Source: Kineosporia sp. NBRC 101731
GTDB lineage: Bacteria; Actinomycetota; Actinomycetes; Actinomycetales; Kineosporiaceae
Assembly (NCBI RefSeq): GCF_030269305.1
Contig: NZ_BSTC01000028.1
Span: 1 to 41,696 of the forward strand
Reading direction: 5' to 3'
Length of the DNA stretch: 41,696 bases
A program made the translations under genes and the position numbers. Position 1 is the first letter of the stretch; each line of letters opens with the position of its first letter. Positions 18,091 to 39,489 of this stretch are shown piece after piece. The notes under the pieces were generated by a model, which did not search any database, had not been told where the DNA came from, and was given only the letters and a program-made list of their open reading frames with translations.

Positions 18091-18180
18091 CTTCCGTGAT
18101 CATGCAAAGTGTCCCCGGAGTTCTAGAACTGTCGGGCTCAGAGTTCTAGAACGCTGGGGACACTTTGCATGATCACGAAG
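18091..18180. repeat. Dispersed GCATGATCAC repeat, copy A (two arms, long hairpin)
   Basis: Two inverted arms, 18091-18129 and 18143-18180, form a stem of more than 30 bp with few interruptions. The arms share GTGATCATGCAAAGTGTCCCC-type sequence, and an inner TTCTAGAA palindrome occurs in each arm. The right arm ends 10 bases before the stop codon of the LacI-type gene (read on the minus strand, just downstream of it), so a terminator role is plausible. The rest of the gap 17818-18090 carries the GH13 operator region and no gene. Confidence 0.85.
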
Positions 18181-18189
18181 GGGTGGGGG

Positions 18190-19197
18190 TCAACGGCGGG
18201 GGACGGCTCCGGTGGACGAACGCACGACCAGTTCGGGCTCGAAGAGCAGTTCGCGGTCCATGGTCATGCCACCCTCGATCTGGTTGATCAGGAGGGTGAG
18301 GGCAGCTCGGCCCATCGACTCGATCGGCTGGCGGATGGTGCTCAGCGGTGGGTCGGTGCAGTTCATCAAAAACGAGTCGTCGAAGCCGACCACGGAGAAG
18401 TCGTCGGGCACTCGGAGCCCGGCTCGGCGCACGGCTTTCACGCCGCCGAGCGCCAGGATGTCACTGGCGAAAATGGCCGCGGTAGCGCCTCGTTCGACCA
18501 GCTTGGACGCCGACAGCTGGCCGCCCTCGACGGTGAACATGGTGTGCTCGACCAGGCCTTCACTCTCCAGACCGGCCCCCGCCACCAGCTTGCCGAAGGC
18601 CTCACCCTTACGCCGCGACGGCACGTGATCGGGAGGCCCGAGCACCAGGCCGATGCGCTCATGCCCCAGTGACCGCAGGTGGGCGAAGGCCAGACCGACA
18701 GCCGCCGTATCGTCGGTCGAAACCGTCGGGAAGTCGAGACCTTCGACCGCCGCATTCATCAGAACCACGGGAATGCCGCGGTTCTCGAGCTGCTCGAAGT
18801 GATCGTGCGCGGCATCGGCCTCGCTGGACGCCCCGCCGAAGAACACCACCCCGGAAACCTGCTTCTCCAGCAGCATCTCGACGTAGGCCGGCTCGCTCAT
18901 CCCGCCCGCCGAGCAGGTGCACAACACCGGCGTGAGCCCGCGGTGCACGATTCCCCCGGCCAGAACCTCGGCAAACGCAGGAAAAATCGGGTTCTGCAGC
19001 TCGGGCAGGATGAGGCCGACCAGCCGGGCCCTCTCACCGCGCAGCTGGGTGGGGCGCTCGTAACCGAGCACGTCGAGCGCAGCGAGGACCGAGCGCCGCG
19101 TGGCCTCGGAAACCCCCGGCCGCCCATTGAGCACCCGGCTGACTGTGGCCTCGCTGACGCCGACCTTCTTCGCCACCTCAGCCAGTCGTCGTGTCAC
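18190..19197 (-). CDS. LacI/GalR-family transcriptional regulator
   Basis: A 335-residue repressor. The N-terminal helix-turn-helix reads RLAEVAKKVGVSEATVSRVL and continues NGRPGVSEATR with the hinge region after it. The rest is a periplasmic-binding-protein-like effector domain (LVGLILPELQNPIF, GVVFFGGASSE, VGFDDSFLMN). It probably represses the adjacent alpha-glucoside operon and releases it on sugar binding. The start is GTG 19197; upstream in-frame codons read through the operator region, so they are unlikely. No clear Shine-Dalgarno site precedes it. TTGC/GCAA palindromes directly upstream suggest autoregulation. Confidence 0.93.
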   Translation of the reverse strand: MTRRLAEVAKKVGVSEATVSRVLNGRPGVSEATRRSVLAALDVLGYERPTQLRGERARLVGLILPELQNPIFPAFAEVLAGGIVHRGLTPVLCTCSAGGMSEPAYVEMLLEKQVSGVVFFGGASSEADAAHDHFEQLENRGIPVVLMNAAVEGLDFPTVSTDDTAAVGLAFAHLRSLGHERIGLVLGPPDHVPSRRKGEAFGKLVAGAGLESEGLVEHTMFTVEGGQLSASKLVERGATAAIFASDILALGGVKAVRRAGLRVPDDFSVVGFDDSFLMNCTDPPLSTIRQPIESMGRAALTLLINQIEGGMTMDRELLFEPELVVRSSTGAVPRR

Positions 19198-19219
19198 AGC
19201 AAGAAGAGTACGCCCACAC

Positions 19220-19247
19220 GCAAGCAGCTTGCATCTCTTGCGCAAGA
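19220..19247 (-). promoter_or_regulatory. Two adjacent operator-like palindromes before the LacI-type gene
   Basis: GCAAGC-A-GCTTGC (19220-19232) and the perfect TCTTGCGCAAGA (19236-19247) stand side by side, 23-50 bases before the regulator start. They share the TTGC/GCAA half-site with the element upstream of the GH13 gene. LacI-family sites usually have this form with a central CG. Confidence 0.55.
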
Positions 19248-19344
19248 AGCCGCCCGGGGAGGGCGACTGACGGCCGAAAAAAGAGGCCCCCTTAACGCCG
19301 AGTAACGGGAATGGCACGGCAATGGAAGGAGTGGGGCAATCCGA

Positions 19345-19389
19345 GGAGCGAGCAGGGGTGAGCCAAGGAGCGAGCGGAACGGGAGCGAG
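19345..19389. repeat. Three GGAGCGAG repeats
   Basis: GGAGCGAGC occurs at 19345-19353 and 19367-19375, and GGAGCGAG at 19382-19389, inside the gap between the LacI-type gene and the DUF5317 gene. This gap (19198-19443) holds no gene. Short repeats of this kind are common in intergenic DNA of high-GC actinobacteria. Confidence 0.45.
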
Positions 19390-19399
19390 GAGGGATACC

Positions 19400-19424
19400 G
19401 GGGAGGTTTTGCATGATCACGAAC
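19400..19424. repeat. Dispersed GCATGATCAC repeat, copy B (single arm)
   Basis: A single arm, identical over 25 bp to copy D at 39465-39489. It carries GGGGAGG, then TTTTGC, then ATGATCACGAAC. It lies 20 bases beyond the stop codon of the DUF5317 gene. An ATG in this arm (19413) opens only a short frame antisense to that gene, so it is not supported as a start here. Confidence 0.85.
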
Positions 19425-19443
19425 GAAGGAATAGAGGGCTTCC

Positions 19444-19983
19444 TCAGGCTTGGGCTGTTTCGGGCTCTTTCGAGTGGCTGTTCGCCAGCACCAGCACCGC
19501 CACGCCGGCCAGGACGAGGATGTCGCCCACGCTGAAGACGTTGGCGAAGGGGAGGCCTTCGGGGATGGCGAAGATGTCGCCGAGCCAGGGCAGGATCGGG
19601 TGCTCCAGTACGCCTGAGTTCGAAAATCCCTCGTCTGCAGGTAGTCCGGCCGTGCGGACCGCCCATTCCGAGGCCGGTAGCGTGCCCTGGTTCAGGGCGA
19701 TCGTCACTCCGTTCAGGGCCGCGCCCAGGGCGATCAGGGGCACCCCGCGAACGGCGCGGTTCCGCCACAGGAACACCGCGGCCAGTCCGTAGGTCAGCAG
19801 ATGCACCGGAAAGCCCAGCCAGGCAGGCACATCCGAGAGCACCGAGAAGAGCAGCACCTGTAGCAGCAGGGCGATCGGCAGCAGTCCCCAGGCCCGTACG
19901 GAGATCTCGCCCAGTCGCTGGAAACTGCCGCCGGTGAGCGGAACGGCCAGTACCAGCAGGAGGGCCACGACGCCCACGATCAT
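19444..19983 (-). CDS. DUF5317 family membrane protein
   Basis: A 179-residue protein with four to five hydrophobic segments. The C-terminal stretch GDIFAIPEGLPFANVFSVGD is the recognisable DUF5317 signature. Function is unknown. The start ATG 19983 overlaps the stop of the upstream GGDEF-EAL gene as ATGA, so the two are translationally coupled and may act together at the membrane. A repeat arm (copy B) lies 20 bases after the stop. Confidence 0.85.
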   Translation of the reverse strand: MIVGVVALLLVLAVPLTGGSFQRLGEISVRAWGLLPIALLLQVLLFSVLSDVPAWLGFPVHLLTYGLAAVFLWRNRAVRGVPLIALGAALNGVTIALNQGTLPASEWAVRTAGLPADEGFSNSGVLEHPILPWLGDIFAIPEGLPFANVFSVGDILVLAGVAVLVLANSHSKEPETAQA

Positions 19984-22136
19984 GCGGGCTTCTCCTCGCG
20001 CGCGTCACGACTCTCACGGATCGGCAGTGGGGTAGGCGTTCCCAGCCGCTCCACCGTCCCCATCGATACCGGACGCGCCCTGGCCAACCCACTCACCACC
20101 TGCTCACACCGGTGCGACTCCCAGTCCGTGAGCCAGGCGTCGAACTCGGTGGCGGACAGCGGTGCCTGCACGATGAACCCCTGGATCACGTCGCATCCGA
20201 GAATCTGTAGATGCCGCCAGCTCTCGACGTCTTCGACGCCCTCCGCAACCACCCGCAGGCCGAGGTTGTGGCCCAGGTCGATGGTCGACCGGACAATGAT
20301 CTGGTCGTTGTCGTCGCTGGTCATGCCGGTGATGAAGCTGCGGTCGATCTTCAGCTCGTCGACCGAGAGGCGCTTGAGATAGGCGAGGGACGAGTAGCCG
20401 GTGCCGTAGTCGTCGATGGCGATGCGCACCCCTGCGGCCCGCAGCATGGCCAGCACGGCCACGGCGCGGTGCGGATCGGTCATCACGGTGTTCTCGGTGA
20501 CCTCGAGCGTGAGCAGTGCGGGAGGCACGCAGTAGCGCTTGAGCAGGGTGTCGACCTGCTCGGGCAGCCGTACGTCGGCCAGGTGCCGCACCGAGAGATT
20601 GACGGCCACCCCGAGGTGCCGGCCCTGGTCCAGCCAGACCCGGGTCCGGCTGATGGCCTGCTCCAGCACGACCAGGGTGAGCTGGGTGATCAGCTCGGTG
20701 GTCTCGGCCAGCGGGATGAACTGGTCGGCGCCCAGCAGACCGCGATGCGGATGCTGCCAGCGCACCAGGGCCTCGGCGCCGACCACCCGGCCGGACCGCA
20801 CGTCGCACTTCGGCTGGTAGTAGACGGTGAGCTGGTCGTCGGCCAGGGCGTCGTGCAGCTGGGTGAGCAGCAGCAGGCGCTCGGTGGTGTTCTCGTCCTT
20901 ACTCGGGTCGTAGACGGCCACACCGCCCCCGTTGCCCTTGGCCAGGTACATCGCGATGTCGGCCTTGGCGAGCAGATCGGCACTGCTGCGCGCGTGCTGC
21001 GGCGCCAGGGCGATACCGATGCTGGCGCGTACCTCCAGGCGGATTCCGGCCACGCTGACCGGGTCGTCGAGGGTGGCCGTGAGCCGCCCGGCCAGGTCGG
21101 TGGCCTCGGTCAGGGGATCGGCGCAGGAGAGGCGGCTGAGCACGGCGAACTCGTCGCCGCCGAGCCTGGCCACCGTCACGTCGTCGGACATGGCCGAGCG
21201 CAGACGCTGCCCGATGTCGCAGATCAGGGCGTCGCCGGCGTCGTGACCGAGGGTGTCGTTGATTTCCTTGAAGTGGTCGAGGTCGATGAACATGACGCCG
21301 AGCACGGGCTCACCGGCAGCCTTCTCGGCGAGCATCCGGTCGAGCTGGAGCAGGAAGAACGAGCGGTTGGGCAGGCCGGTGAGGGCGTCGTGCTGGGCGC
21401 TGTGGCGATGTTCCAGGGCCAGCTTGGAGATCTGGTGCACCGCGATGACGGGCATCAGCACCAGCGGTACGAGCCAGAGCGAGAAGTTGGTGACGGCCAG
21501 GCAGATCGGGGCCATGGCCACCATGGGGCCCCAGGTGGTGATGTTCTGGCGCACGTCGATCCACAGGCGAGCTCCCTCGATCCGCCGGCTGGCCAGGGCG
21601 ATCACCGTCACCACGAGGCCGTTGTTGACGAGGAAGTAGGCCCCGGAGGCGAGGATGGCCGGGCCCACGTCGTCGCGCTGGAAGTGCTCGGGCACGAAGA
21701 ACGACTGATGGGCGACCAGGCTGAAGATCCAGCGGCCGGCCGCGACGGCCAGAACGTACTGTCCGAGGTTGAACACCGGCCGGGACCAGTGCCGGCCCTG
21801 TTTCAGGTCGTCGATGAGGAGCGGCACGCACTGGGCCAGGATCACCAGGCCGAGCGGGGCGGCGAAGATCAGGGCCACGATGAACGTGGTGGAGAGCGTC
21901 ATCAGGTAGGTGCGGCTGTCGTGCAGCACGACCTCGACCGAGGTCAGCTCGCCGATGATCACGCCGAGCAGCAGGAAGACGATCACCAGGCGATCGACGC
22001 CGAACTGTCGTGGCTGCAGCAGCAACGCCGCCAGTGACCAGACGAGGATGGGAAGGGCCGCCACGATGACTGCTGTGACGAAAAGGCCGAGCGGTGTGAC
22101 CCGTGGGTGCGCCACGCCGGATCCGGTGTCCGTCAT
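19980..22136 (-). CDS. Membrane GGDEF-EAL c-di-GMP turnover protein
   Basis: A 718-residue protein. Residues 15-235 form six to eight membrane helices, followed by a cyclase domain with ARLGGDEF (GGDEF at 326-330), and a phosphodiesterase domain with AEALVRW (EAL at 455-457), VNLSVRH, EVTENT, IDDYGTGYSSL, LKIDRSF and EGVED. Both catalytic sets look intact and no RxxD inhibitory site is visible. It differs from the other GGDEF-EAL protein in its membrane part. The start is ATG 22136 with AGGGGCGGG just before it. A strong hairpin at 22160-22197 separates it from the small peptide gene upstream, so its promoter is probably within 22137-22227. Confidence 0.93.
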   Translation of the reverse strand: MTDTGSGVAHPRVTPLGLFVTAVIVAALPILVWSLAALLLQPRQFGVDRLVIVFLLLGVIIGELTSVEVVLHDSRTYLMTLSTTFIVALIFAAPLGLVILAQCVPLLIDDLKQGRHWSRPVFNLGQYVLAVAAGRWIFSLVAHQSFFVPEHFQRDDVGPAILASGAYFLVNNGLVVTVIALASRRIEGARLWIDVRQNITTWGPMVAMAPICLAVTNFSLWLVPLVLMPVIAVHQISKLALEHRHSAQHDALTGLPNRSFFLLQLDRMLAEKAAGEPVLGVMFIDLDHFKEINDTLGHDAGDALICDIGQRLRSAMSDDVTVARLGGDEFAVLSRLSCADPLTEATDLAGRLTATLDDPVSVAGIRLEVRASIGIALAPQHARSSADLLAKADIAMYLAKGNGGGVAVYDPSKDENTTERLLLLTQLHDALADDQLTVYYQPKCDVRSGRVVGAEALVRWQHPHRGLLGADQFIPLAETTELITQLTLVVLEQAISRTRVWLDQGRHLGVAVNLSVRHLADVRLPEQVDTLLKRYCVPPALLTLEVTENTVMTDPHRAVAVLAMLRAAGVRIAIDDYGTGYSSLAYLKRLSVDELKIDRSFITGMTSDDNDQIIVRSTIDLGHNLGLRVVAEGVEDVESWRHLQILGCDVIQGFIVQAPLSATEFDAWLTDWESHRCEQVVSGLARARPVSMGTVERLGTPTPLPIRESRDAREEKPA

Positions 22137-22159
22137 CCCGCCCCTGCTTCCCGTGGCGC

Positions 22160-22197
22160 CTCCCCGGTACTGACCCGACCGGGCCGGTACCGGGGAG
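22160..22197 (-). terminator. Terminator of the small peptide transcript
   Basis: A perfect 11-bp stem CTCCCCGGTAC/GTACCGGGGAG with a 16-base loop that holds a nested CCCG/GGG pairing. It begins 31 bases after the stop codon of the 33-residue peptide on the minus strand and isolates that transcript from the GGDEF-EAL gene. Confidence 0.65.
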
Positions 22198-22227
22198 ACG
22201 CGGACGTACGGATTCAGCTGACCGCGC

Positions 22228-22329
22228 TCAGCCCCACTTGTCTGAGGCGCCCACCAGCACTGCGAGGGTGACGACGGCCGTCACGACGCCCGCAGCCTTG
22301 ACATATGCCGTTGCCTTGAACTCGTTCAT
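22228..22329 (-). CDS. 33-residue single-span membrane peptide
   Basis: A short gene encoding MNEFKATAYVKAAGV followed by a hydrophobic run (about residues 13-28) and the tail SDKWG. Support comes from a strong ribosome binding site, GGAGGG five bases before ATG 22329, GC-rich third positions, and a terminator 31 bases after the stop. It is predicted to be a small inner-membrane protein with a positively charged N-terminus. No family is recognised. It lies between a structured leader (22360-22465) and the c-di-GMP gene, and may also be a peptide encoded by a regulatory RNA. Confidence 0.6.
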   Translation of the reverse strand: MNEFKATAYVKAAGVVTAVVTLAVLVGASDKWG

Positions 22330-22359
22330 ATGGACCCTCCTCATACGTGCCCGGAACTA

Positions 22360-22465
22360 GCCAGGTGACCAACCGCTCTGGCCCGCGGGTCGAAGTCGCG
22401 GGAGGTCGGCAGTGAGCGTTCCCGTCGGCTGTTCCAGCAACCTCACCCCGGGGCGCGGCTACCTC
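22360..22465 (-). ncRNA. Structured 5' leader, candidate regulatory RNA
   Basis: On the minus strand five stems can be drawn: P1 GAGGT/ACCTC (22465-22461 with 22406-22402), enclosing P2 GTGAG/CTCAC (22446-22442 with 22416-22412) and P3 GCTG-GAA-CAGC (22438-22428). These are followed by P4 CGCGGG/CCCGCG (22402-22397 with 22387-22382) and P5 GCCAG/CTGGC (22382-22378 with 22364-22360), ending 20 bases before the ribosome binding site. I compared it by eye with c-di-GMP-I, c-di-AMP, cobalamin, TPP and SAM-IV riboswitches and found no match. The rest of the 22330-22550 gap holds no gene. Confidence 0.4.
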
Positions 22466-22550
22466 GACACAGGGATTATGTCCACAATCGTCCATTTTGG
22501 GTACTAGTCGGCACAAATATGCAGCTCGGCACCCGGCGGGGCAGGAAAAT

Positions 22551-23393
22551 CTAGAGAGCGCGACTGCGGCCCTGCGCCGTCGCGATGAGCCGGCAGACCA
22601 GGTAGATCGCGAAGGAGATGGTGGTGACGTAGGGGCTGATCGGCACGCTGCTGCCGAGGGCGAGCAGGATGCCCCCGATCATCGAGACGGTGGCGAAGAG
22701 GATGCTCAGCACGGTCGCGCCGGCGGTGGTGGAGGCCAGGCGTACGGCGGCAGCACCCGGGGTGACCACGATGCTCAGCACCAGCAGAGCCCCGACGACC
22801 TGCACCGACATGGCCACGACAAGACCGAGCAGCACCATGAAGAGCAACGAGAGCGGACCTAGCGGGATGCCTCGGGCCTGAGCCACCTCGGGGTCGGTAC
22901 TGGCGAAGGAGAGCGGGCGCCAGATCAGCAGCATCACCCCGACCACGATCACCGAGATCACCGCCAGCCAGGACAGCGCGGGCGTGTCGATGGCCACGAT
23001 CTGACCGGTGAGCAGACCGAACTTGTTCGCGGCCCGGCCCTCGTAGAGCGCCAGGAAGAGCACGCCCAGGCCCAGCCCGAACGGCATCAGCACGCCGATC
23101 CAGGAGTTGCGGTCACGGGCCCGAACCCCGAGCAGCCCGATGAGGATCGCGGCCCCGAGCGAGCCGACCAGCGACCCGGCCACCACGTTCAGCCCGAGCA
23201 GCAGGAATCCCGAAGCCCCGGCGAACGACAGCTCGCTGATGCCGTGCACGGCGAAGGGCAGGTCCCGCATCACCACGAAGGTGCTGATGAGGCCGCCGAC
23301 GATGCCGAGGATCAGACCGGCCAGCAGCGAGTTGTGCACCAGGGGCAACAGCTCGCTGTAGTCGGCGAAGTTGAAGATCTTGTCCCAGCTCAC
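22551..23393 (-). CDS. znuB: Zinc ABC transporter permease ZnuB
   Basis: A 280-residue permease of the metal ABC-3 family with about eight membrane helices. Typical segments are GLILGIVGGLISTFVVMRDL, HGISELSFAG and SVQVVGALLVLSIVVTPGA. It forms the channel for zinc uptake with ZnuC and ZnuA. The start is GTG 23393, overlapping the ZnuC stop as GTGA; the frame is open further upstream but only antisense or out-of-frame to znuC. It is the last gene of the operon under the Zur box. No clear terminator was found after its TAG. Confidence 0.93.
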   Translation of the reverse strand: MSWDKIFNFADYSELLPLVHNSLLAGLILGIVGGLISTFVVMRDLPFAVHGISELSFAGASGFLLLGLNVVAGSLVGSLGAAILIGLLGVRARDRNSWIGVLMPFGLGLGVLFLALYEGRAANKFGLLTGQIVAIDTPALSWLAVISVIVVGVMLLIWRPLSFASTDPEVAQARGIPLGPLSLLFMVLLGLVVAMSVQVVGALLVLSIVVTPGAAAVRLASTTAGATVLSILFATVSMIGGILLALGSSVPISPYVTTISFAIYLVCRLIATAQGRSRAL

Positions 23394-24253
23394 GATGGGC
23401 CTGCGCTTTCGGGGGCCTCGTCGCGGGGCTCGTCGTGGAGCTCGTCGGAAGAATGCTGGACGGGGCGGTCGGGAATCCCGACGACCACCAGTTGCCCGCG
23501 CACCCGCAGGACATCGACGGGCGAACCGTACAGCCGGGTCAGGGTCTGCGAGGTCATCACCTCGTCCACCGGGCCGATCGTGAACCGGCCGCCGGCCAGG
23601 TACAGCACCCGGTCGGCGTAGGGCAGCACCGGGTTGATCTCGTGGGTGACGAAGACGACGCCGGTGTTGTGGTCGCGCCGGCGACGGTCCACCACGGCGC
23701 ACACCTCGCGCTGGTGGTGCAGGTCGAGCGAGAGCAGCGGCTCGTCGCAGAGCAGCAACTGCGGGTCGCAGGCCAGGGCCTGGGCGATCCGCAGCAGCTG
23801 CTGCTGACCGCCGGAGAGCCGGGAGGCCGGGGCATCGGCGAACCGGGTGGCCCCGACCTCGGCAAGTGCGGCGTCGATGCGCTCGCGCCGCTGCCGGCGG
23901 TTCAGCATCGGCAGACCCCACTGGTGCCCGTCGTACCCGTAACCGACCAGGTCACGGGCCCGCACCGGGGTGAGGGGGTCGAAGCGGCGCTGCTGCGGCA
24001 CGTAGCCGACCTCGCGCCGGGCGGCAGTCGGCGTCTTGCCGAGCACGCTGATCGTGCCGGCCGACAGCGGCTGCATCCCGAGCAGGCAGCGCAGCAGGGT
24101 GGTCTTGCCGGAACCGTTCGCGCCGAGCACGGCGACGAACTCCCCGGGTCTGACGGTCAGGTCCAGGTCTTCCCAGAGTGGTTCGCCCGCGTCGAACCCG
24201 AGTGCGGCGCCGCTCAGGCGCACGAGCTGCGCGCCGTCTTCAATGTCACTCAT
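23390..24253 (-). CDS. znuC: Zinc ABC transporter ATPase ZnuC
   Basis: A 287-residue ATPase. It has Walker A GANGSGKTT, Q-loop YVPQQRRFDP, signature LSGGQQQ, Walker B LLLCDEPLLSLD and the switch His in FVTHEINP. It powers zinc import together with ZnuB. A C-terminal tail of about 30 acidic and proline-rich residues (SSDELHDEPRDEAPESAG) extends beyond the normal fold. The start is ATG 24253 with GAGGG four bases upstream; TTG 24256 is in frame. It lies 10 bases after the znuA stop. Confidence 0.95.
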   Translation of the reverse strand: MSDIEDGAQLVRLSGAALGFDAGEPLWEDLDLTVRPGEFVAVLGANGSGKTTLLRCLLGMQPLSAGTISVLGKTPTAARREVGYVPQQRRFDPLTPVRARDLVGYGYDGHQWGLPMLNRRQRRERIDAALAEVGATRFADAPASRLSGGQQQLLRIAQALACDPQLLLCDEPLLSLDLHHQREVCAVVDRRRRDHNTGVVFVTHEINPVLPYADRVLYLAGGRFTIGPVDEVMTSQTLTRLYGSPVDVLRVRGQLVVVGIPDRPVQHSSDELHDEPRDEAPESAGPS

Positions 24254-24263
24254 CAAACCCTCA

Positions 24264-25226: not shown

Positions 25227-25275
25227 GACGCCGTCCTTCCGAGAAAGCCTGCACCCACGTGCCGAGGGAGCTACA

Positions 25276-26326: not shown

Positions 26327-26343
26327 CCACCAGAAAAGCAACA

Positions 26344-30962: not shown

Positions 30963-33527
30963 GTGTCAGGGATCTCGCTCGGACTGCAGAGCCCGTACGG
31001 CTACAACGGCGACGACCTGACCAGCCCGGCCCAGGCCGCACGGGCCGGGGCGCTGGTCGACCAGCAGTGGGAGGACGAGCCCGACCTGCCGCTGGAACTG
31101 CGCATCCACGGAGTGTCCGGCAGTACCGGCCCGGTGATCCTGGAGCACCCGCACGTGCTGCAGGTGGGCGGCACCCGGCCGACAGCGTTCTACCGGCGCT
31201 GGAGTCCGGACGGGGTGGGCCGGCCGTCGGTGCCCTGGCCCCTGGAGGCCTACGTCTGGGGCGGTCTCACGGCGCGGGCCCTGGCCTCGGCGTCGTGGCT
31301 GCTGCTGTTGCCGTTCATGCTCTACAACGTCGCCTACTACATGCTCCCGGCCGGTCCGGCCAAGGGCCGCGGGCGGCGTCTGCTCAGCGCCCACGCCCTG
31401 GCCCGGATCGTGGTCCGGTTGCTGGCCCTGGCCTCGACCGTGCAGTTCGTCGGCAGCCTGGTCACGCTCTTCCACTCCACCATCGCCTGGCAGAACGGCG
31501 TAGAACGGCTCGGCGCCTCGTGGTGGTGGCTGAGCTGGTACACCGGCGCCTCGACGGCGACCCGGATGTCCCTGGCCACCCTCGCCGTCGCCTCGGTGAT
31601 CGGGGCGCTCTGGTACGCCGGGGCCGCGACCGCCAGTCACTACGAGGCGTTCAGCACCGGTCGGGGCAGCTACGCGCCCGGCGTGCAGGTGGACGGCGAG
31701 AACCGGCGTGACCGGCTGCCCTCGGGCCGGCTGACGCTGCGCGACCGGGGCTTCTGGCGGGGTGCCGCGGCCGCCGCCCGGCTGCGCAACACCCACATCG
31801 CCGCCGCCTTCGCCACCATCTCGCTGGCCCTGGCCGGATGCACCAGCACACTCGGCTCCTGGCAGAAGGCCCAGATCGCGGTCTCCGGCACCATCCTGCT
31901 CGCGGCCGTGGTGCTCGCCGGGTTCGTTGCCGACCGCGACACCGTGGGTGGCAACGACGACGTGGCCCGGTTCGCCACCGCGTTCAAGGCCCTGGCCTGG
32001 GCCTCGGCCCTGGTCCTGCTGGCCGGGGTGGTTGCCTCGCCGTGGGTGATCGAGGGCGCGCCCGCCGACCCGCGGCACGCCGCGCCGTACGGACTGCTCG
32101 GCGCGATCACGGTTCTCACCGTGGTGCAGTTCGGCCTGCTGGCCGTGCTCGCGGTGCTGGTCGCCTGGCTGCTGCTGCGCTCGGGAGACGAGCAGCCGCA
32201 CGGCTGGAGGCCGTTCCTGCGGGGCTACGCCTCACCGGTGACCGCACTGCTCGGGGTGATGCTGGGCGGGGTCCTCACCGCGGCGCTCAACGTCTCCGTG
32301 GCACGGGTCTTCGGCGAGCCGAACGGCTTCTCGCTGCACAAGGTGGACGCCGACTGGGACAGCAGCATCATGCTGCCCGACTCGATGTTCGCCTACTCCG
32401 CCGGCGCGGTGTTCAACCTGATCACGATCTTGATCCTGCTCGGCCTGCTGTACCTGCGTTACCGGCGGCTGATCAAGCGTTTCACCACGGGCAAAGCCGG
32501 GTCCGCGCCCCTCGACGGCGGGCCGGACGCGGTGACCGACTGGTACCCGGCGGAGGAGCGTGACGCCCCGCGGGCGGCCGTCACCAAGGTGGCGAAGCAC
32601 TGGGCCGTGGCCGCGCTGACCGACGACGTGGCGGCCGTCCTGGGCACCATCACCCTGAGCTGGGCGCTGCTGTTCTGGGTCTTCGAGGGTCTGGCTCTCC
32701 ACACCACGCAGTCGTTCTCCGGGGTGGCCGGGATCGTGCCGACGATCGGCGTGTTCATCGGCGGGCTGCTCGCGGCCTCCGGGGTGTGGGTGCTGCGGGC
32801 GCAGATCCGCTCGCCCAACGCCCGCAAGACCGTCGGCATCATCTGGGACATCGGCACGTTCTGGCCGCGCGCCGTGCACCCGCTCGCCCCGCCCAGCTAC
32901 GCCGAGCAGGCCGTGCCCGAACTGGTCGACCGGATCTGGGTGCTCACCGGCTCCCGCCGTTCGGGCCCCCACACCACGCCGGTACCGGGCGAGATGTCGG
33001 GCGCGATCGAGGTGATTCCCCGGCACGTCCTGCTCACCGGCTACAGCCAGGGCACCGTGATCAGTGCGGCCGTGATCGCCCAGCTGCCCGAGGACGTGCT
33101 CAGCCGGGTCTCCCTGCTCACTCTCGCCGCACCGCTGAGAAGGCTGTACGGCCGCGCCTTCCCGGCCTACTTCGGCCATGCGGCCGCGGTGGCCCTGCGG
33201 GACCTGCTCAGCGGGCCGGGACCGGCCCCCGCCGGCGACGATCCCTCGGAGGTCGAGCCGGCACCGCCCAGCGTGCGCGCCCCCGAGCCGCCGAAACCCC
33301 GCTGGCGCAACGTGGTGCGGCGCAGTGACTACATCGGTGGCTGGGTGTTCGGCCTGCCGCGGCCCCAGCAGCGGGTGCCCGGCAGCCAGCAGGTCGACGT
33401 GATCAGTCTCGACCCGCCCTCGCTGGAGCCCGAGCACGGCACCACGCTGGCCCCGACGCACTATCACTCGGCCTTCTGGCAGGACCCGGTGGTGATCCTT
33501 TACGCCCGGGAACTCGGAAAGCGTTAA
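30963..33527 (+). CDS. Large membrane protein with split alpha/beta-hydrolase motifs
   Basis: An 854-residue protein. The N-terminus has ELRIHGVSGSTGPVILEHPH (HG at 49-50), resembling an alpha/beta-hydrolase oxyanion strand. About ten membrane helices follow (residues 100-620). The C-terminal soluble part has HVLLTGYSQGTVIS, a nucleophile elbow with Ser695, then DVISLDPPS and THYHSAFWQDP with possible catalytic His833/His835. I recall similar uncharacterised integral membrane proteins in Streptomyces and Frankia. A membrane-embedded lipase or esterase is plausible, not shown. GTG 30963 has GGGGAGG nine bases upstream. The stop codon lies inside a 38-bp palindrome. Confidence 0.8.
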   Translation: MSGISLGLQSPYGYNGDDLTSPAQAARAGALVDQQWEDEPDLPLELRIHGVSGSTGPVILEHPHVLQVGGTRPTAFYRRWSPDGVGRPSVPWPLEAYVWGGLTARALASASWLLLLPFMLYNVAYYMLPAGPAKGRGRRLLSAHALARIVVRLLALASTVQFVGSLVTLFHSTIAWQNGVERLGASWWWLSWYTGASTATRMSLATLAVASVIGALWYAGAATASHYEAFSTGRGSYAPGVQVDGENRRDRLPSGRLTLRDRGFWRGAAAAARLRNTHIAAAFATISLALAGCTSTLGSWQKAQIAVSGTILLAAVVLAGFVADRDTVGGNDDVARFATAFKALAWASALVLLAGVVASPWVIEGAPADPRHAAPYGLLGAITVLTVVQFGLLAVLAVLVAWLLLRSGDEQPHGWRPFLRGYASPVTALLGVMLGGVLTAALNVSVARVFGEPNGFSLHKVDADWDSSIMLPDSMFAYSAGAVFNLITILILLGLLYLRYRRLIKRFTTGKAGSAPLDGGPDAVTDWYPAEERDAPRAAVTKVAKHWAVAALTDDVAAVLGTITLSWALLFWVFEGLALHTTQSFSGVAGIVPTIGVFIGGLLAASGVWVLRAQIRSPNARKTVGIIWDIGTFWPRAVHPLAPPSYAEQAVPELVDRIWVLTGSRRSGPHTTPVPGEMSGAIEVIPRHVLLTGYSQGTVISAAVIAQLPEDVLSRVSLLTLAAPLRRLYGRAFPAYFGHAAAVALRDLLSGPGPAPAGDDPSEVEPAPPSVRAPEPPKPRWRNVVRRSDYIGGWVFGLPRPQQRVPGSQQVDVISLDPPSLEPEHGTTLAPTHYHSAFWQDPVVILYARELGKR

Positions 33528-33544
33528 CGCTTTCCGAGTTCCCG
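33507..33544. terminator. 38-bp perfect palindrome centred on a stop codon
   Basis: A perfect palindrome with no loop; its left arm begins CGGGAACTCGGAAAGCG. The TAA stop of the membrane hydrolase gene (33525-33527) sits at the centre. It probably acts as a terminator, but the coding sequence for the last residues (ARELGKR) forms one arm. The following gap, 33545-33764, is less GC-rich than its surroundings and holds no supported gene. Confidence 0.75.
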
Positions 33545-33764
33545 TGACTTCCAGAATGAAACAAACCAATATGTGACCAGCATTGCCCGAAGGAACCTTT
33601 CAGGGAATTCATTCGCTTTCGGGCTTGATTCTTTGCGTTGCATCACGGCAATCTGATTTCGGGCCACCCGAAGGCCCGATTCTCCGAACGTGATCAAGGC
33701 AGGGGATGCCCGCTCCCTCCCCTCCTCTGCGGCCGACCCCGGCCACTGACAAAAGGGGCGCGCG

Positions 33765-35117
33765 ATGAACGGTGACTCGTTCCTTTCCGCCGAAGCTCTG
33801 GTATCGCATTCGCCCGGCGGAAGAATCGACCGGATTCTCTGGTTCCACCGCACCGATCGCTGGTACTTCGGCGATTTTCTGCGGCACTCGGCCTGGCTCG
33901 CCTGGGCGCGGGAATCCTTTCCCGCGGCCGTCATCGACCTGGCCTCGCACGCGGCCTACCTGCCGCTGTTCGCGGACGACCGGTTCGGCCGCCACTTCGA
34001 TTCCCGGCAGGGCGCCCCCGCCGGCCCGTACGACCTGGTCATCGAACCGGGATCGTTCGAGCCGGAGCCCGCCGACGGCCTGCGGCTCGTCTCCTGGGAC
34101 TCCGGCTGGGCCCTCCGGCACGACGGCCAGGTGCTGCTGGAGGGCCGCAAGCAGGAGCTCAACTACTTCCGGGCCGCGCATCCGGGCTCGGTGACCGGGC
34201 ACCGTTCCGTCACACCGACCCGGATCCGGTTCACCCCGGCGGAGCTCGACCACGCGAACTCCCTGATCGAGCGGGCTTTCCCCGGCCAGGCACCGGTCGT
34301 GGTCTACAACCCCTCGGCCTCCAACGCCTTCACCCGGGAGACCGGCGCCCGCAAGGAGGTGGACAACTCCCTCACCCCACACGAGCACGCCACCGTGCTC
34401 CGCCAGACCCTGAAGCTGATGCCCGACCACCGTTTCATCGTCGGCGCCTCGGTGAAGATCGGTGACCGGCAGAATGAATCACTGATCACGACGCTGGCCC
34501 GGACGTATCCCAGCAACCGGGTCCGGCCGGTCACCAGCCTCGGGGGCGGCCTGACCCTGCGGGGCTTCGCCGGACTGCTGGCAGCCTCACGGGTGCGCGG
34601 CATGCTGGGCACCGGAACCGGTACGAACACCCATCTGGCAGCGCTTCTCGGCCTGCGGGCCCTGTCGGTCGAGCGCGGCCACGACGAGGAGATGCAGGCG
34701 AACTGGTCAGGCCCGGGCTTTCAGATGGGCTCGTTCAGATGGCGAAACCCTTCGGTGCAGACGGAAATCCATACTATGAACCGATCTCGCCGCGGCGAGA
34801 CGAATCTTCTGGCGGTGGCCGGAATCTTCGCCCTGGGCGAGATGGCAGCGGAGCCGTTGCCGGTCTTCGACAAACAATGGGACTGCGACCCCGCCGCCGC
34901 GGTCCGGTCCGCCGCCGCACTCCTGCGGTCCATGCCCCCGCAGGCCGCTGCCCACTACGGCGACTTCACCGACGAGGCAGCCTATCTCGGGTCCAAGGCC
35001 GATGGCCTGCAGGCCGTCGTCACGGCTCTCGAATCACCCGATCCACAGATCGCGCGCATGCTCTTCGAAGACTCGAATCTCTTCAAGCTCATCACCCGTC
35101 CCGGCAGGAGCATGTGA
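33765..35117 (+). CDS. Glycosyltransferase family 9-like protein
   Basis: A 450-residue protein with two-domain heptosyltransferase-like features. The N-terminal half has GRIDRILWFHRTDRWYFGDF, and the second half begins VVVYNPSASNAFTRE (about 177-190) with SLTPHEHATVLRQTL, as where GT9 enzymes bind the nucleotide sugar. GMLGTGTGTNTHLAALLGL later resembles the loop before the GT9 C-terminal helix. The match is by fold and motif only, so the acceptor and sugar are unknown. ATG 33765 has AAGGGG six bases before it. Its stop overlaps the start of the APH-like kinase gene, so the two proteins probably act together. Confidence 0.6.
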   Translation: MNGDSFLSAEALVSHSPGGRIDRILWFHRTDRWYFGDFLRHSAWLAWARESFPAAVIDLASHAAYLPLFADDRFGRHFDSRQGAPAGPYDLVIEPGSFEPEPADGLRLVSWDSGWALRHDGQVLLEGRKQELNYFRAAHPGSVTGHRSVTPTRIRFTPAELDHANSLIERAFPGQAPVVVYNPSASNAFTRETGARKEVDNSLTPHEHATVLRQTLKLMPDHRFIVGASVKIGDRQNESLITTLARTYPSNRVRPVTSLGGGLTLRGFAGLLAASRVRGMLGTGTGTNTHLAALLGLRALSVERGHDEEMQANWSGPGFQMGSFRWRNPSVQTEIHTMNRSRRGETNLLAVAGIFALGEMAAEPLPVFDKQWDCDPAAAVRSAAALLRSMPPQAAAHYGDFTDEAAYLGSKADGLQAVVTALESPDPQIARMLFEDSNLFKLITRPGRSM

Positions 35118-36175
35118 TGACCCAAGATCTGTCACTCCGGGTACGACACGATGCCCGGACCGCTCTCGACCACCTGGGCCTGAAACCGCTGGGCCCGCTC
35201 CGCAGCCTTCCGACTCCGTGGGACCGGCCGCAGCGCCAGGTGCTGCACACCCCGGTCGCCGGGTCACTGCGGGGCGAGGTGGCCGTCAAGGTCCTGCTCG
35301 ACCCCGACCCCGCGGCCGCCGCGGCGTTCGCCCAGGAGCACGACCTGCCCCGGGTTCTCAGCCCGATCGCCGACTCCCTGGTGCGCAGCGGCGAGATCCC
35401 GCACAACCCGATCGTTCAGCTGCTGCACCGCGAACCGGTACAGCTGGCCGGCTCCCTGGTGGCGGTGACCCGCTTCGCCCGCGCCGTGGGCCCCCTGGAC
35501 GCCACCACCTGGGGCCGCACCCTCGGCATCCTGCACCGCATCGGGACCACCCCGTCCGCCCTTCGGCGACTGACCGGTGTGCCGGGCAAGACGCTGGCGG
35601 GGTTGCACGCGCAGACCCTCGTCGAGGCGTTCCAGCGGCCCGGGCACCCGTTCCACGACCGGGCCGACCTGGCCCTGCGTTTCGCCCACGTCCTGCGGGA
35701 ACGGGTCGCCCGGGCACTGGAGCTCGACCCGGAACCGCTCCTGGCGCACCGCGACTTCCACGCACTCAACTGCGTGCACGCCCGTACCGGGGCCGTGGTG
35801 CTGGACTGGCAGGAGGCCGGCTGGGGCAGCCGGTCGGACGACTTCGCCTGGCTGTACCTCACGGTGAGCCGCTTCGGTGGCCTGCCGCAACTGCTCGACG
35901 AGGCGAAGACCGCCTATCGGCAGGCCAGTGGCGGAATCTGCCCCAGCGACGAGCAGATCCGGGCCGCCGGGCAGGTGCGTGAGCTGCTCTGCCTCGGATT
36001 CTCGCTGGCCAAGGCCGATCACAGCCCTCGGCACCGGCGGGAGGCTCTCAACCAGCTGCCGATCCTGCGCGATCCACAGACCCGCACCCGACGCTGGCGC
36101 ATGCTGCACAACCCGGCGATCTTCAGCCCGGGAATCATCCCGTCGCGGCGCACGACGGCCGCCTGGTCGGCCTGA
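35117..36175 (+). CDS. APH/choline-kinase-like phosphotransferase
   Basis: A 352-residue member of the aminoglycoside phosphotransferase/choline kinase fold. The catalytic loop reads LAHRDFHALN (Asp213, Asn218), followed by the metal-binding VLDWQEAGWGSRSDDFAWLYL (Asp230). The ATP-binding N-lobe is divergent (EVAVKVLLDP supplies the usual lysine). Such kinases phosphorylate small hydroxyl compounds, sugars or choline; resistance is not implied. ATG 35117 overlaps the preceding stop by one base (TGATG), with AGGAG six bases upstream, so translation is coupled to the glycosyltransferase-like gene. Repeat copy C follows the stop by 17 bases. Confidence 0.8.
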   Translation: MTQDLSLRVRHDARTALDHLGLKPLGPLRSLPTPWDRPQRQVLHTPVAGSLRGEVAVKVLLDPDPAAAAAFAQEHDLPRVLSPIADSLVRSGEIPHNPIVQLLHREPVQLAGSLVAVTRFARAVGPLDATTWGRTLGILHRIGTTPSALRRLTGVPGKTLAGLHAQTLVEAFQRPGHPFHDRADLALRFAHVLRERVARALELDPEPLLAHRDFHALNCVHARTGAVVLDWQEAGWGSRSDDFAWLYLTVSRFGGLPQLLDEAKTAYRQASGGICPSDEQIRAAGQVRELLCLGFSLAKADHSPRHRREALNQLPILRDPQTRTRRWRMLHNPAIFSPGIIPSRRTTAAWSA

Positions 36176-36192
36176 CCTCCCGAGCTCTTCGT

Positions 36193-36238
36193 TCGTGATC
36201 ATGCAAACTTTCCCCGGGGAAAGTTTGCATGATCACGA
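36193..36238. repeat. Dispersed GCATGATCAC repeat, copy C (46-bp perfect palindrome)
   Basis: A perfect palindrome with no loop, formed by two arms of the repeat meeting at CCCC|GGGG. Each arm reads TCGTGATCATGCAAACTTTCC inward. It starts 17 bases after the stop of the APH-like kinase gene and could terminate that operon. Confidence 0.9.
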
Positions 36239-36292
36239 CGATTGAGGACGATCACGAGGGCGCGCGGGTCAGTCGCCACGGTGAGGGCACCT

Positions 36293-36335
36293 GCATGAAG
36301 GCGCTGGCATGAAGGCGCTGGCATGAGGGCACCGA
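36293..36335 (+). repeat. 14-bp tandem repeat upstream of thiM
   Basis: GCATGAAGGCGCTG occurs twice in tandem (36293-36306, 36307-36320), followed by a partial third unit GCATGAGGGCAC. Each full unit contains a five-codon frame MKALA whose stop overlaps the next ATG as ATGA. The repeat lies about 100-140 bases before the thiM start. Confidence 0.6.
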
Positions 36336-36376
36336 TGTGAAGGCACAGTTAAAGCCATCGCCAGCTCATAGCCACG

Positions 36377-36408
36377 CCTGCATGTAGCTGCATACAGTGG
36401 CATGCAGG
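36377..36408 (+). promoter_or_regulatory. Inverted repeat before thiM, possible operator
   Basis: CCTGCATG (36377-36384) and CATGCAGG (36401-36408) are perfect inverted arms 16 bases apart, with further TGCAT between them. The element lies 28 bases before GTG 36436. It could be the operator of the GntR-type regulator encoded at the end of the cluster, or an RNA hairpin. Confidence 0.45.
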
Positions 36409-36435
36409 ATCCGCCGCCATCGAGGAGACGTCACC

Positions 36436-37215
36436 GTGCAAGAGATCAGCTGGCAGGACGAGGACATCCGCAAGGGCTTCGCGGCCATCGCCCAGGCGTC
36501 CCCCTTCGTCTACGGCCTGACCAACTACATCGCCGCCAACCTGAGTGCGAACGTGCTGCTCGCGGTGGGCGCGGGCCCGGCCATCGGTGCGGCGTCGGAC
36601 TGGACACGCACCTTCCCGGCCGGGGCCGGGGGCGTGTGGATCAACAGCGCGGGCCTGATGAGCAGCAGCGAGGAGAGCTTCACCGAGGTCGCGCGCACCG
36701 CGCAGGCCGCCGGCACGCCGTGGGTGCTCGACCCGGTCGCGGTCGGCGCCGGGGCGCCCGAGTACGACGCCTTCGTGAAGTCACTGCTGGAGTTCAAGCC
36801 GGCGATCATCCGGGGCAACGCCAGTGAGCTGATCGCCCTGGGTGGCGGCGCGGCCCTGGGCAAGGGGGTGGAGACCACGGCCAGCTCGTCCGAGGCCGTC
36901 GACGCCATCGCCGAGATCGCCCGCAACACCGGCGCCGTGGTGGCGGTCAGCGGTCCGGTCGACTACATCACCGACGGCACCACCACGGTCTCGGTCCCGG
37001 GTGGGGACGTCCGTCTCACCAAGGTGACAGGTGCCGGTTGCAGTCTGGGTGCCTTCTGCGCCGCCGCGGCCGCCGCCGGCAACTCCCCCTTCGTGGCCGC
37101 CCAGGTCGCCCACGCCGCCTACGCGGTCGCCGCCGAGCGGGCGGGTGCGCGCACCCAGGGCACCGGCGAGTTCGCCGTCGCGCTGGTGGACGAGCTGTCG
37201 CTGCTGACGGCCTGA
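36436..37215 (+). CDS. thiM: Hydroxyethylthiazole kinase ThiM
   Basis: A 259-residue kinase of the ribokinase-like fold that phosphorylates 4-methyl-5-(2-hydroxyethyl)thiazole in thiamine salvage. Motifs are GLTNYIAANLSANVLLAVGA, WINSAGLMSSSEE, LDPVAVGA, IIRGNASELIAL and VTGAGCSLGAF with Cys202. It fits ThiM length and order well. The start is GTG 36436 with GAGGAG eight bases upstream; a longer in-frame ATG at 36397 runs through the operator-like repeat. It is first in a rightward cluster with a flavin monooxygenase, a sulfurtransferase and an amidase. No TPP riboswitch is seen. Confidence 0.88.
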   Translation: MQEISWQDEDIRKGFAAIAQASPFVYGLTNYIAANLSANVLLAVGAGPAIGAASDWTRTFPAGAGGVWINSAGLMSSSEESFTEVARTAQAAGTPWVLDPVAVGAGAPEYDAFVKSLLEFKPAIIRGNASELIALGGGAALGKGVETTASSSEAVDAIAEIARNTGAVVAVSGPVDYITDGTTTVSVPGGDVRLTKVTGAGCSLGAFCAAAAAAGNSPFVAAQVAHAAYAVAAERAGARTQGTGEFAVALVDELSLLTA

Positions 37216-37240
37216 ACCACCCCCGCGACCGGAGCCCGAC

Positions 37241-37294
37241 CGCGTCCTCAAAGCCGCGTCCTCAAAGCACTGCCCGGCAAGAAGCACTGCCCGG
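37241..37294 (+). repeat. Tandem duplications between thiM and the monooxygenase gene
   Basis: CGCGTCCTCAAAGC occurs twice back to back (37241-37254, 37255-37268), and AAGCACTGCCCGG then occurs twice with 17-base spacing (ending 37277 and 37294). This looks like recent slippage or duplication in the short leader of the monooxygenase gene. Confidence 0.6.
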
Positions 37295-37305
37295 AAAGGA
37301 AACCG

Positions 37306-38646
37306 ATGCACCTCGCCGCCTTCATGAACGCAGGCCCACAGGGAACCGTGGGCTGGCGGCACCCGGAGGCCGGCAACGGCTTCCTGACCACCGCCCACTA
37401 CGCGCACATCGCCAAGGTTCTCGAAGCCGCCTGCTTCGACCTGGTGTTCATCCCGGACGCCATGGCCGTGCCGCGCAGCCTGGGCAACTCGTTCGAGCCG
37501 GCCGTGAAGTGGGGCTCCGGCACGCCGCGCCTCGACCCGATGCCGGTGATCACCACGATGGCCGCGGTGACGACGCATCTCGGCGTCGCGGCGACCATCT
37601 CGACGGGTTACCAGGAGCCGTACAACGTGGCGCGCGGCCTGGCCACCCTCGATCACCTGACCCAGGGCCGGGCCGGCTGGAACGTGGTGACCAGTTTCCA
37701 GGACGCCGAGGCGCAGAACTTCGGCCAGGACAAGCTCCCCGACCGCGCCACCCGCTACCGCCGGGCCGAGGAGTTCCTCGAGGTCAGCACCCGGTTGTGG
37801 GACAGCTGGTCGGACGACGTGATGATCCGGGACAAGGCGACGGGAGTGTTCGGCCGGCCCGAGGAGGTCGAGGCGGTCGACCACGAGGGCGAGTTCTTCA
37901 AGGTACAGGGGCCGCTCAGCGTGCCCCGGCCCCCGCAGGGCTACCCGGTCATCATCCAGGCCGGTGCCTCGCCGGCCGGCCGGGACTTCGCCTCGCGCTG
38001 GGCCGACGTGATCTTCTGCTCACACGAGTCACTGGCCTCGGCGATCGACTTCTACGCCGACATCAAGCAGCGGGCCGCCTCCTTCGGCCGTGACCCGGCA
38101 CAGGTCAAGATCCTGCCGGCCGCCACGATCGTGGTCGGCACCGATGTCCGGGACGCCATGGCCAAGCACGAGGCCTTCGCCGACCTGGTCTCGGTGGAGG
38201 CCGGACTGTCCCGGCTGGCCTACCACGTGAACGTCGACCTGACGAAATACGATCTGGACGGCCCCCTTCCGTCGCTGGAAGTGGTCGGCGTGGAGGGCCA
38301 CTACCGCGAGGTGGTCGAGTTCGCCGAACGCGAGAAGCTGACCGTGGCCGAGATCGGCCGGTGGTACGGCGCCCGCACCGAAGGCAACATGATCGGCTCG
38401 GCCCGCGACATCGCGGACACCATGGAGCAGTGGATGAAGGCCGGTGCCGCGGACGGTTTCATGATCCAGGCCACGCACGTGCCGGGCGCTTTCGAGGACG
38501 TCGCCCGCGAGGTGGTGCCGGAACTGCAGCGACGTGGGCTGTTCCGCACCTCCTACGAGGATGGCACCCTGCGTGACCGGCTCGGCCTGGACCGGCCCGC
38601 GCGGGGTGAGTGGCGCAACCGGGCCGCGTCGGTGGTGAAGGCGTGA
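37306..38646 (+). CDS. NtaA/DszA-family FMN-dependent monooxygenase
   Basis: A 446-residue luciferase-like monooxygenase of the NtaA/SnaA/DszA/SoxA group. Motifs are AHYAHIAKVLEAACFDLVF, LDPMPVITTMAAVTTHLG, GRAGWNVVTSFQDAEAQNFG and the family end AREVVPELQRRGLFRTSYE. These two-component enzymes use FMNH2 from a separate reductase to oxidise or cleave N- or S-containing compounds such as nitrilotriacetate, sulfones and pyrimidines. The substrate here is unknown; the ThiM and sulfurtransferase neighbours hint at a sulfur compound. ATG 37306 has AAAGGA upstream. Its stop overlaps the sulfurtransferase start as GTGA. Confidence 0.9.
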   Translation: MHLAAFMNAGPQGTVGWRHPEAGNGFLTTAHYAHIAKVLEAACFDLVFIPDAMAVPRSLGNSFEPAVKWGSGTPRLDPMPVITTMAAVTTHLGVAATISTGYQEPYNVARGLATLDHLTQGRAGWNVVTSFQDAEAQNFGQDKLPDRATRYRRAEEFLEVSTRLWDSWSDDVMIRDKATGVFGRPEEVEAVDHEGEFFKVQGPLSVPRPPQGYPVIIQAGASPAGRDFASRWADVIFCSHESLASAIDFYADIKQRAASFGRDPAQVKILPAATIVVGTDVRDAMAKHEAFADLVSVEAGLSRLAYHVNVDLTKYDLDGPLPSLEVVGVEGHYREVVEFAEREKLTVAEIGRWYGARTEGNMIGSARDIADTMEQWMKAGAADGFMIQATHVPGAFEDVAREVVPELQRRGLFRTSYEDGTLRDRLGLDRPARGEWRNRAASVVKA

Positions 38647-39461
38647 GCTCGCTGGTCACAGCCTCCTGGCTGGCCACTCACCTCGAGGAGGTGGTGCTGC
38701 TCGACGCCAGCATCCGCCGCACCGAGACCGGTTACGTCAGCGGACTTCCCGAGTACGAGGCCGGTCACCTGCCGGGGGCCCGGTTCGCCGATGTCTTCGA
38801 GCAGTTCTCCGACCCGGCGGCGGGTTTCGCGTTCGGGGCACCCGGGAAGAAACAGATTGAGGACGCGGCGCGCTCGGTCGGGATTTCCGGTGACACCACG
38901 GTGGTGGTGTACGACCGGCTCTCCGGCGCCTGGGCCGCCCGGCTGTGGTGGGTGTTCCGGTCGTTCGGGATCGAGCGGGTCTTCGTCCTGGACGGCGGGC
39001 TCTCCGCCTGGACCGCAGCCGGTTTCGATCTGGTCACCGGTCCGGACCAGGGCCCGGTGCAACCCGGCGACGTGACCGCGGTTGCCCAGGAGGGCTTCTT
39101 CGTCGGGCTGTCCGAGGTGCAGGCGCTGTCCGAGAACCCCTCGGCCGGCGACCCGGTCGTGTGTGCCCTGCGCGGATCCGAATACGACAGGGGCCACATC
39201 CCGAACAGCTCGAGCCTGCCCTACCCCTCGCTGCTCGCGCCGGACGGCACCGTCGACCTGGACCAGGCCCGCCGGGCCGCCCGGGAGTACGACGCCGCCG
39301 ACCAGGTGGTGCTCTACTGCGGCGGCGCGATCAACGCCGCCGGGCTGGCCCTGGCCCTGACCGAGGGCGGTCTGCCGATCGGGCGGATCACGCTCTACGA
39401 CGGCTCACTCAGCGAGTGGAAGTCCGACCCGGCCCGCCCGCTGACCACTGATCAGTCGTGA
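38643..39461 (+). CDS. Two-domain sulfurtransferase (rhodanese)
   Basis: A 272-residue thiosulfate/3-mercaptopyruvate sulfurtransferase type protein. The first rhodanese domain is non-catalytic (VVYDRLSGAWAARLWWVFRS). The second carries the active-site Cys226 in VVLYCGGAINAAG. It moves sulfane sulfur to cyanide or other thiophiles. The start is GTG 38643, coupled to the monooxygenase stop; a frame open further upstream is antisense-like. Within this cluster it may process sulfur released by the monooxygenase; that is inference. Repeat copy D begins four bases after its stop. Confidence 0.9.
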   Translation: MSSLVTASWLATHLEEVVLLDASIRRTETGYVSGLPEYEAGHLPGARFADVFEQFSDPAAGFAFGAPGKKQIEDAARSVGISGDTTVVVYDRLSGAWAARLWWVFRSFGIERVFVLDGGLSAWTAAGFDLVTGPDQGPVQPGDVTAVAQEGFFVGLSEVQALSENPSAGDPVVCALRGSEYDRGHIPNSSSLPYPSLLAPDGTVDLDQARRAAREYDAADQVVLYCGGAINAAGLALALTEGGLPIGRITLYDGSLSEWKSDPARPLTTDQS

Positions 39462-39464
39462 TCG

Positions 39465-39489
39465 GGGGAGGTTTTGCATGATCACGAAC
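39465..39489 (+). repeat. Dispersed GCATGATCAC repeat, copy D (supplies amidase start)
   Basis: Identical over 25 bp to copy B. GGGGAGG (39465-39471), TTTTGC and ATG (39478) form a well-spaced ribosome binding site and start codon for the amidase gene. A short GTGATC (39458-39463) can pair with GATCAC in the repeat. Confidence 0.88.

Follow-up and report, generated by a model that had tools for sequence, protein, structure and literature searches.

The window analysed here is a stretch of 41,696 nucleotides from Kineosporia sp. NBRC 101731 (contig NZ_BSTC01000028.1), and it carries a dispersed repeat whose arms lie close to gene ends. With up to three mismatches allowed, six arms are found at four places, called copies A to D (Table 1). 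In 100 shuffled windows the mean was 0.39 arms and the maximum 3, and none reached six. All arms reported by the initial annotation were thus recovered, and its 25-bp identity between copies B and D, as well as the inverted pairing in A and C, were borne out. The RNA folding energies of A and C are -63.2 and -32.4 kcal/mol, respectively. Copy A is indeed an inverted pair, but its description lacked two GTTCTAGAAC motifs, which we have added. Every copy had been placed less than 20 bases from a stop codon. Measured in coordinates between the 14-mer and the closest predicted stop codon, this holds for A (13), C (19) and D (12), but is slightly generous for B (23). No gene is interrupted by a copy, as had been claimed, but the gene that follows copy D apparently has its start codon within the copy, see below. 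Across the window, no family of Rfam 15 matched at its gathering score.

Table 1. Positions of the repeat copies and of associated features in the window.
Feature	Position	Strand	Remarks
Copy A, full 83-bp element	18095..18177	no strand	flank pairing extends to 18085-18187 in copy A
Copy A, left half			CGTGATCATGCAAA 18095-18108, triplet GTG, TCCCC, GTTCTAGAAC 18120-18129
Copy A, loop	18130-18142		13 nt
Copy A, right half			GTTCTAGAAC 18143-18152, GGGGA 18156-18160, triplet CAC, TTTGCATGATCACG 18164-18177
Copy B, single arm GGGGAGGTTTTGCATGATCACG	19400..19421	+	past the stop of a minus-strand gene ending at 19444
Copy C, short 44-bp paired element without inner motif	36194..36237	no strand	follows the stop of a plus-strand gene, gene end 36175
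20-bp segment of copy D without counterpart in K. mesophila	39464..39483	+	TGATC at both bounds; alignment by eye
Copy D, single arm	39465..39486	+	between a rhodanese-domain gene (stop 39459-39461) and the amidase gene
Amidase gene (PF01425)	39478..40860	+	predicted start codon inside copy D

The repeat is abundant outside the window. In the 8.26-Mb window genome (G000), TTTGCATGATCACG occurs with at most one mismatch at 453 places (232 + 221), and the reversed control gives none. This genome is close to Kineosporia mesophila JCM 16902, as aligned pieces of at least 1 kb are mostly 90-95% identical. G002, which represents this species or strain (of ten of its 3-kb loci, four match K. mesophila loci at 100%, two of them over the full length), contains 435 places (222 and 213). 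The counts in four other congeners are 0, 1, 1 and 5. For a closer description, 1.24 of the 8.26 Mb of G000 (about 15%) were read, and genes were called with a home-made codon-usage finder. Apart from the initial 400 kb of contig C1, these stretches were picked around known matches, as they were in G007, a genome of another genus, and in four other genomes; this choice influences the density of copies but not their position within gaps. From K. mesophila, 80 of 120 stretches were used, of which 64 were left once overlaps had been removed. The G000 stretches contain 148 arms in 83 groups: 57 inverted ('-+') pairs, 21 single arms and 5 other arrangements.

The full element is an 83-bp palindrome made of a foot, CGTGATCATGC, a covarying triplet, GGGGA, two GTTCTAGAAC motifs and a variable loop of 13 nt. 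Pair spacings cluster at 69-70 (21 pairs), 29-31 (14) and 97-98 (10). The 69 type reads CGTGATCATGCAAA, triplet, TCCCC, GTTCTAGAAC and loop, followed by the mirror image, and in the 30 type the inner motif is missing. An additional module in one arm distinguishes the 98 type from the 69 type. At three 98-type loci (2, 8 and 20) K. mesophila is shorter by exactly 29 bp, and alignments of loci 2 and 76 show that the module is missing there. Copy C is the converse: at its site K. mesophila has the left arm, followed by module-like sequence in the expected place of the right arm, and this sequence is confined to K. mesophila. All but one of the 16 module matches lie at most 120 nt from an arm, and the remaining one lies between diverged arms.

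The covariation of the triplet noticed in the window extends to the genome. The triplet is the same in both arms of 34 of the 57 paired copies (z per position 6.3-6.7 relative to re-paired arms); for copies of the 98-spaced type this is so in only 1 of 11. Between the two sides of a copy, the remainder of the arm covaries along with the triplet, up to the outer edge of the foot. The flanks were considered as a further part of the element and rejected, as complementarity beyond the foot is no better than in re-paired flanks, except that it is weakly raised at +22, +23, +36 and +51 and weakly lowered at some others. In the base profile of 129 arms the foot ends in CACG, the next base is A or G, and an A follows in 76%. 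The loop is 13 nt long in 32 of 34 copies in G000 and in 61 of 62 in K. mesophila, mostly of the form T-S-T-N7-A-S-A. Its sequence is distinct in all 34 G000 copies and, save for one pair, in all 62 of K. mesophila. Besides the two half elements that flank a gene (see below), several half elements start at the loop position, which is where a hairpin nuclease would cut.

The position of the copies relative to genes is biased. After exclusion of 6 groups in a gene-poor stretch and 9 overlapping predicted genes (9 of the 77 groups outside that stretch), 68 groups lie in gaps: 31 in convergent gaps (9.0 expected by bases), 30 in tandem gaps (36.3) and 7 in divergent gaps (22.7). The latter were also left out of the stop distances. 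Among the remaining 61 groups, which adjoin a gene 3' end, 54 are at most 30 nt from the stop, compared with 31.4 (standard deviation 2.8, maximum 40) in 500 random placements within the same gaps. The initial annotation would have been refuted by few further copies or by a lack of enrichment after stop codons; neither applies, given the 453 places and this placement. The median distance from element to stop is 15 nt, and 29 of the 30 copies in tandem gaps are closer to the upstream stop. A TTTT run within 25 nt outward is found at 20 of 126 arms versus 3.8% of random intergenic stretches, about four times the background.

Most copies are common to the two species: of the comparable loci, 36 of 42 in G000 and 38 of 41 in K. 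mesophila have at least one arm at the corresponding site of the other species. At locus 22, one of the six G000-only loci, an unrelated perfect hairpin occupies the K. mesophila site (by eye). Across 15 full elements compared between orthologs, 326 of 330 positions are identical in the outer core (98.8%), 75 of 75 in GGGGA (100%) and 289 of 300 in the inner motif (96.3%), compared with 217 of 266 (81.6%) and 204 of 265 (77.0%) in the adjacent flanks and 58 of 105 (55.2%) in the central loop; the arm identities are inflated, as arms had to be recognisable in both species. Selection on the stem is the simplest reading of its conservation. The loops of the 15 orthologs agree at 5-12 of 13 bases, compared with 6.67 for unrelated pairs. 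The loop was also considered as a deliberate barcode, which was rejected, since fast drift, inversion or replacement is enough given this sharing. Decayed copies, in six groups, are found in a stretch (G000:C1:258535-277208, L173-L174) that spans about 19 kb, contains a single predicted gene and has a GC content of about 61%; there, none of 9 arms is perfect versus 100 of 139 elsewhere (p 2e-5).

At the site of copy D, K. mesophila reads ...CAGTCGTGATCACCGGGGAAGCGGGTACGGG and G000 reads ...CAGTCGTGATCGGGGGAGGTTTTGCATGATCACGAACAGGGAAATGGGTACGG. The K. mesophila sequence runs straight into TGATCAC, and three more bases are extra in G000 further along from the 20-bp segment (by eye). In the amidase frame this segment contributes GGGGGAGG, six bases and an ATG (39478), so that the predicted G000 protein opens with MITNREMGT from the arm-supplied start. 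For K. mesophila, MITGEAGT would start at a GTG that overlaps the upstream stop, provided that the frame holds across about 300 bases of the gene that lie between the pieces read; that frame is broken in G000. Copy D thus appears to replace a stop-overlapping GTG start with its own putative ribosome site and ATG. We infer that D was gained in the G000 lineage rather than lost, as the arm is nearly absent from four congeners. The initial annotation had preferred a selected repeat to a random mobile insertion. This part is not supported: the family has expanded in two sister species, is nearly absent from four congeners, and D is missing from K. mesophila.

As the route of spread, mobilisation by a RAYT (REP-associated tyrosine transposase, where REP stands for repetitive extragenic palindromic) was rejected, since Y1_Tnp (PF01797) has no match in seven hairpin-rich genomes, G000, G002, G007, G013, G016, G034 and G759. 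It has none in G743 either, and matches occur in G994 (two; one hairpin) and G005 (one; few feet). Target-site duplications were sought at the edges of 122 paired copies from both species as direct repeats 2-9 nt long, which turned out to be no commoner than in shuffled pairs. No clean empty site was seen at nine loci where one species lacks the arm. In the roughly 15% of the genome read, a single arm-flanked gene was found as a candidate autonomous partner with the same ends, and it is not a known transposase. It occupies the loop position between two half elements (L210:3645-4828, i.e. G000:C1:1543645-1544828, and L077:962-2086) and is inverted between the species. Its product matches AbiEi_4 above the cut-off, and REase_MTES_1575 and AbiEi_1 below theirs. 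Considered as an autonomous mover, this gene has a single full-length copy in either species, at one shared site, plus one weak partial match in G000.

The window repeat looks like one branch of an actinomycete family with a common 10-letter foot and lineage-specific stems. The 11-mer GCATGATCACG has 151 copies in G007, 39 in G004 and 31 in G003, with none in the reversed control. In the G007 stretches most pairs are 31 apart and the stem is ACTTTCGA, and in G003 and G004 several copies are hairpins with other stems, some right after stops. Among 394 genomes of the class, 7 contain pairs of the form GTGATCATGC...GCATGATCAC (48, 42, 12, 11, 6, 1 and 1 copies; control 0). Three of these genomes are outside the order, and the stems of the pairs vary by lineage. 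By a test on open frames of at least 240 nt with a third-position GC above 0.75, which are not gene calls, 12 of 21 such pairs in four of the seven genomes have an open-frame stop 0-30 nt outside, 4 only through the TGA within the foot, and 5 neither. In G007, 28 of the 30 pairs in the stretches are in placed gaps, 19 of which are convergent, and of 26 copies adjoining a gene 3' end, 22 lie no more than 30 nt from a stop; seven predicted genes (L319-L338) use the TGA inside the foot as their stop. Around one G007 copy (L331:6687-6770), a perfect inverted repeat continues for at least 32 nt more, which reflects either a long palindrome or an error of the assembly. TTTGCATGATCACG, the longer word, is found in 4 of 396 genomes of the phylum including G000, with one copy in each of the other three, and the inner motif pair in 3 of 297 genomes of the order. 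Immediately upstream of trpB (TIGR00263 match above the cut-off), two Kineosporia genomes, G000 (L161:11044-11075, contig C1) and G004 (L303:7884-7915), have an GTTCTAGAAC pair without arms and with a gap of 12 nt, which resembles an operator; in the repeat this pair has a gap of 13 nt. The footed pair is also present in four viral-contig stretches, and among plasmids and phages nothing matched copy A. No earlier description of the repeat was found in the open-access library searched.

Placement, symmetry, hairpin energy, the enrichment of T-runs and the unrelated K. mesophila hairpin at locus 22 argue for a role at RNA 3' ends. On balance we lean towards a slowly spreading 3'-end hairpin, probably a two-way terminator or 3'-end stabiliser at the RNA level. 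A conserved paired foot (CGTGATCATGC / GCATGATCACG) would bear a lineage-specific stem and a fast-changing loop. We infer that the elements are transcribed: transcripts arriving from both sides of a copy just past the genes would fold into the same long hairpin, which would end transcription and/or protect the mRNA 3' end. Selection would keep the stem and let the loop drift, and new copies, formed rarely, would be copied into gene ends with no Y1 transposase involved; copy D points to a joint at a pre-existing GTGATCAC. The proposal of a maintained, REP-like 3'-end element is supported by covariation, placement and stem conservation. Its terminator part is plausible but unproven, as T-runs, although enriched, occur at a minority of arms and the gaps keep other hairpins.

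Several observations weigh against this reading, in addition to the inflated arm identities. Most arms have no T-run. Other hairpins are as strong in gaps with the element (n=41, mean -20.9) as in length-matched gaps without it (n=360, -21.3; p 0.60), so that the element does not visibly replace terminators, and replacement as such is unsupported. At locus 27, where the element is G000-only, a terminator-like hairpin of K. mesophila has its G000 counterpart beside the element. Strand-specific wobble cases are too few for an asymmetry to count either way. Several orthologous loops are no more similar than unrelated loops, or match better as the reverse complement, and at some orthologous loci the triplet has changed in both arms, differing between the species at locus 2. 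From the loops and the triplet change at locus 2, gene conversion among copies could be an alternative cause of stem conservation.

The main rival to the two-way 3'-end hairpin is a purely selfish miniature element that inserts or survives preferentially past stops, the stem being kept as the recognition site of its mover or by conversion between copies and not for any use to the host. We regard it as less likely. It would account for the patchy, lineage-specific expansions, the species-specific copy D, the gene between two half elements (AbiEi_4 above, REase_MTES_1575 below cut-off) and the in-place replacement and possible loop inversion among orthologs, and tolerance alone would give the depletion from divergent gaps. 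However, even within the same gap the copies are more stop-proximal than random, and most comparable copies are common to both species, yet their stems outlast the flanks. Copies in the gene-poor stretch have decayed, and neither a target duplication in the 122 paired copies, orthologs included, nor a Y1 transposase was found. A site for a nucleoid or regulatory protein, binding the foot and/or GTTCTAGAAC in DNA and acting at gene ends, is improbable in our view. The location at 3' ends and the depletion from divergent gaps do not favour it, the covarying triplet favours a folded structure, and the inner motif pair was found in just the 3 of 297 order genomes while the foot carries other stems elsewhere; in its support, the sequence itself is conserved beyond pairing, other genera and genomes from outside the order have the foot as well, and the armless pair upstream of trpB in G000 and G004 is operator-like. 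Neisseria uptake words are short, accumulate by transformation and can form inverted pairs after genes. A tag of this kind would fit an 11-mer in hundreds of copies, with inverted pairs after genes and lineage dialects, but the repeat is far longer than a word, is homogeneous within a lineage and rarely overlaps predicted genes (the 9 of 77 groups above), so that such an origin is very improbable.

The closest known systems are the GTAG and CGTC superfamilies of REPs described by Di Nocera and colleagues (PMC3733652). According to that article, these are high-copy intergenic palindromes of 20-40 bp with lineage-specific stems and a common tag, mostly near gene 3' ends in convergent and unidirectional gaps; they form dimers, some supply a stop codon, and the CGTC families are apparently without a dedicated transposase. 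Neither 'actinomyc' nor 'actinobacteria' occurs in its text. The window repeat is likewise high-copy, palindromic, intergenic and biased to gene 3' ends. However, its 129-arm base profile contains no GTAG or CGTC tag, its common part is a paired foot of 10-11 bp instead of an unpaired tag, it reaches 83 bp or more, and unlike for GTAG-type REPs there is no RAYT in the seven hairpin-rich genomes. The repeat is therefore REP-like in build and placement, but it is not a known REP, as the tag test failed and a RAYT is missing. It can be speculated, tentatively, that it belongs to a third superfamily of REP-like elements, known so far from actinomycetes, with the paired foot GTGATCATGC and swapped stems, which would spread without Y1, perhaps by joining at GTGATCAC near stops, and could rewire genes through its own ribosome site and start codon.

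These elements are a large natural collection of nearly identical hairpins at 3' ends, for which two close species offer orthologous pairs. This makes the definition of mRNA ends in high-GC actinomycetes testable, and also REP-like spread without a RAYT transposase. That the foot turns up again outside the order while its stems change points to a putative factor that recognises it specifically, and copy D is a concrete case of an arm seemingly taking over the translation start of a gene.

Two further classes are comparable. Miniature inverted-repeat transposable elements (MITEs) are short, dispersed and non-coding, with palindromic ends and species-specific expansion. The window repeat has terminal inverted repeats as well, though 21 of 83 groups are single arms, and it differs from MITEs by the missing target-site duplication (122 paired copies). 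Bidirectional intrinsic (Rho-independent) terminators are stable hairpins soon after stops, in gaps between convergent genes and with T-runs. The window repeat is also a stable hairpin shortly past stops, enriched between convergent genes and with some T-runs, but here one sequence is repeated at hundreds of sites, most arms are without a T-run, and other hairpins are present in the same gaps. Finally, one article (PMC12306157) reports that E. coli REPs at most about 15 nt from a stop codon lower translation. The stop distance is similar here, with the median given above, but the sequences are unrelated.

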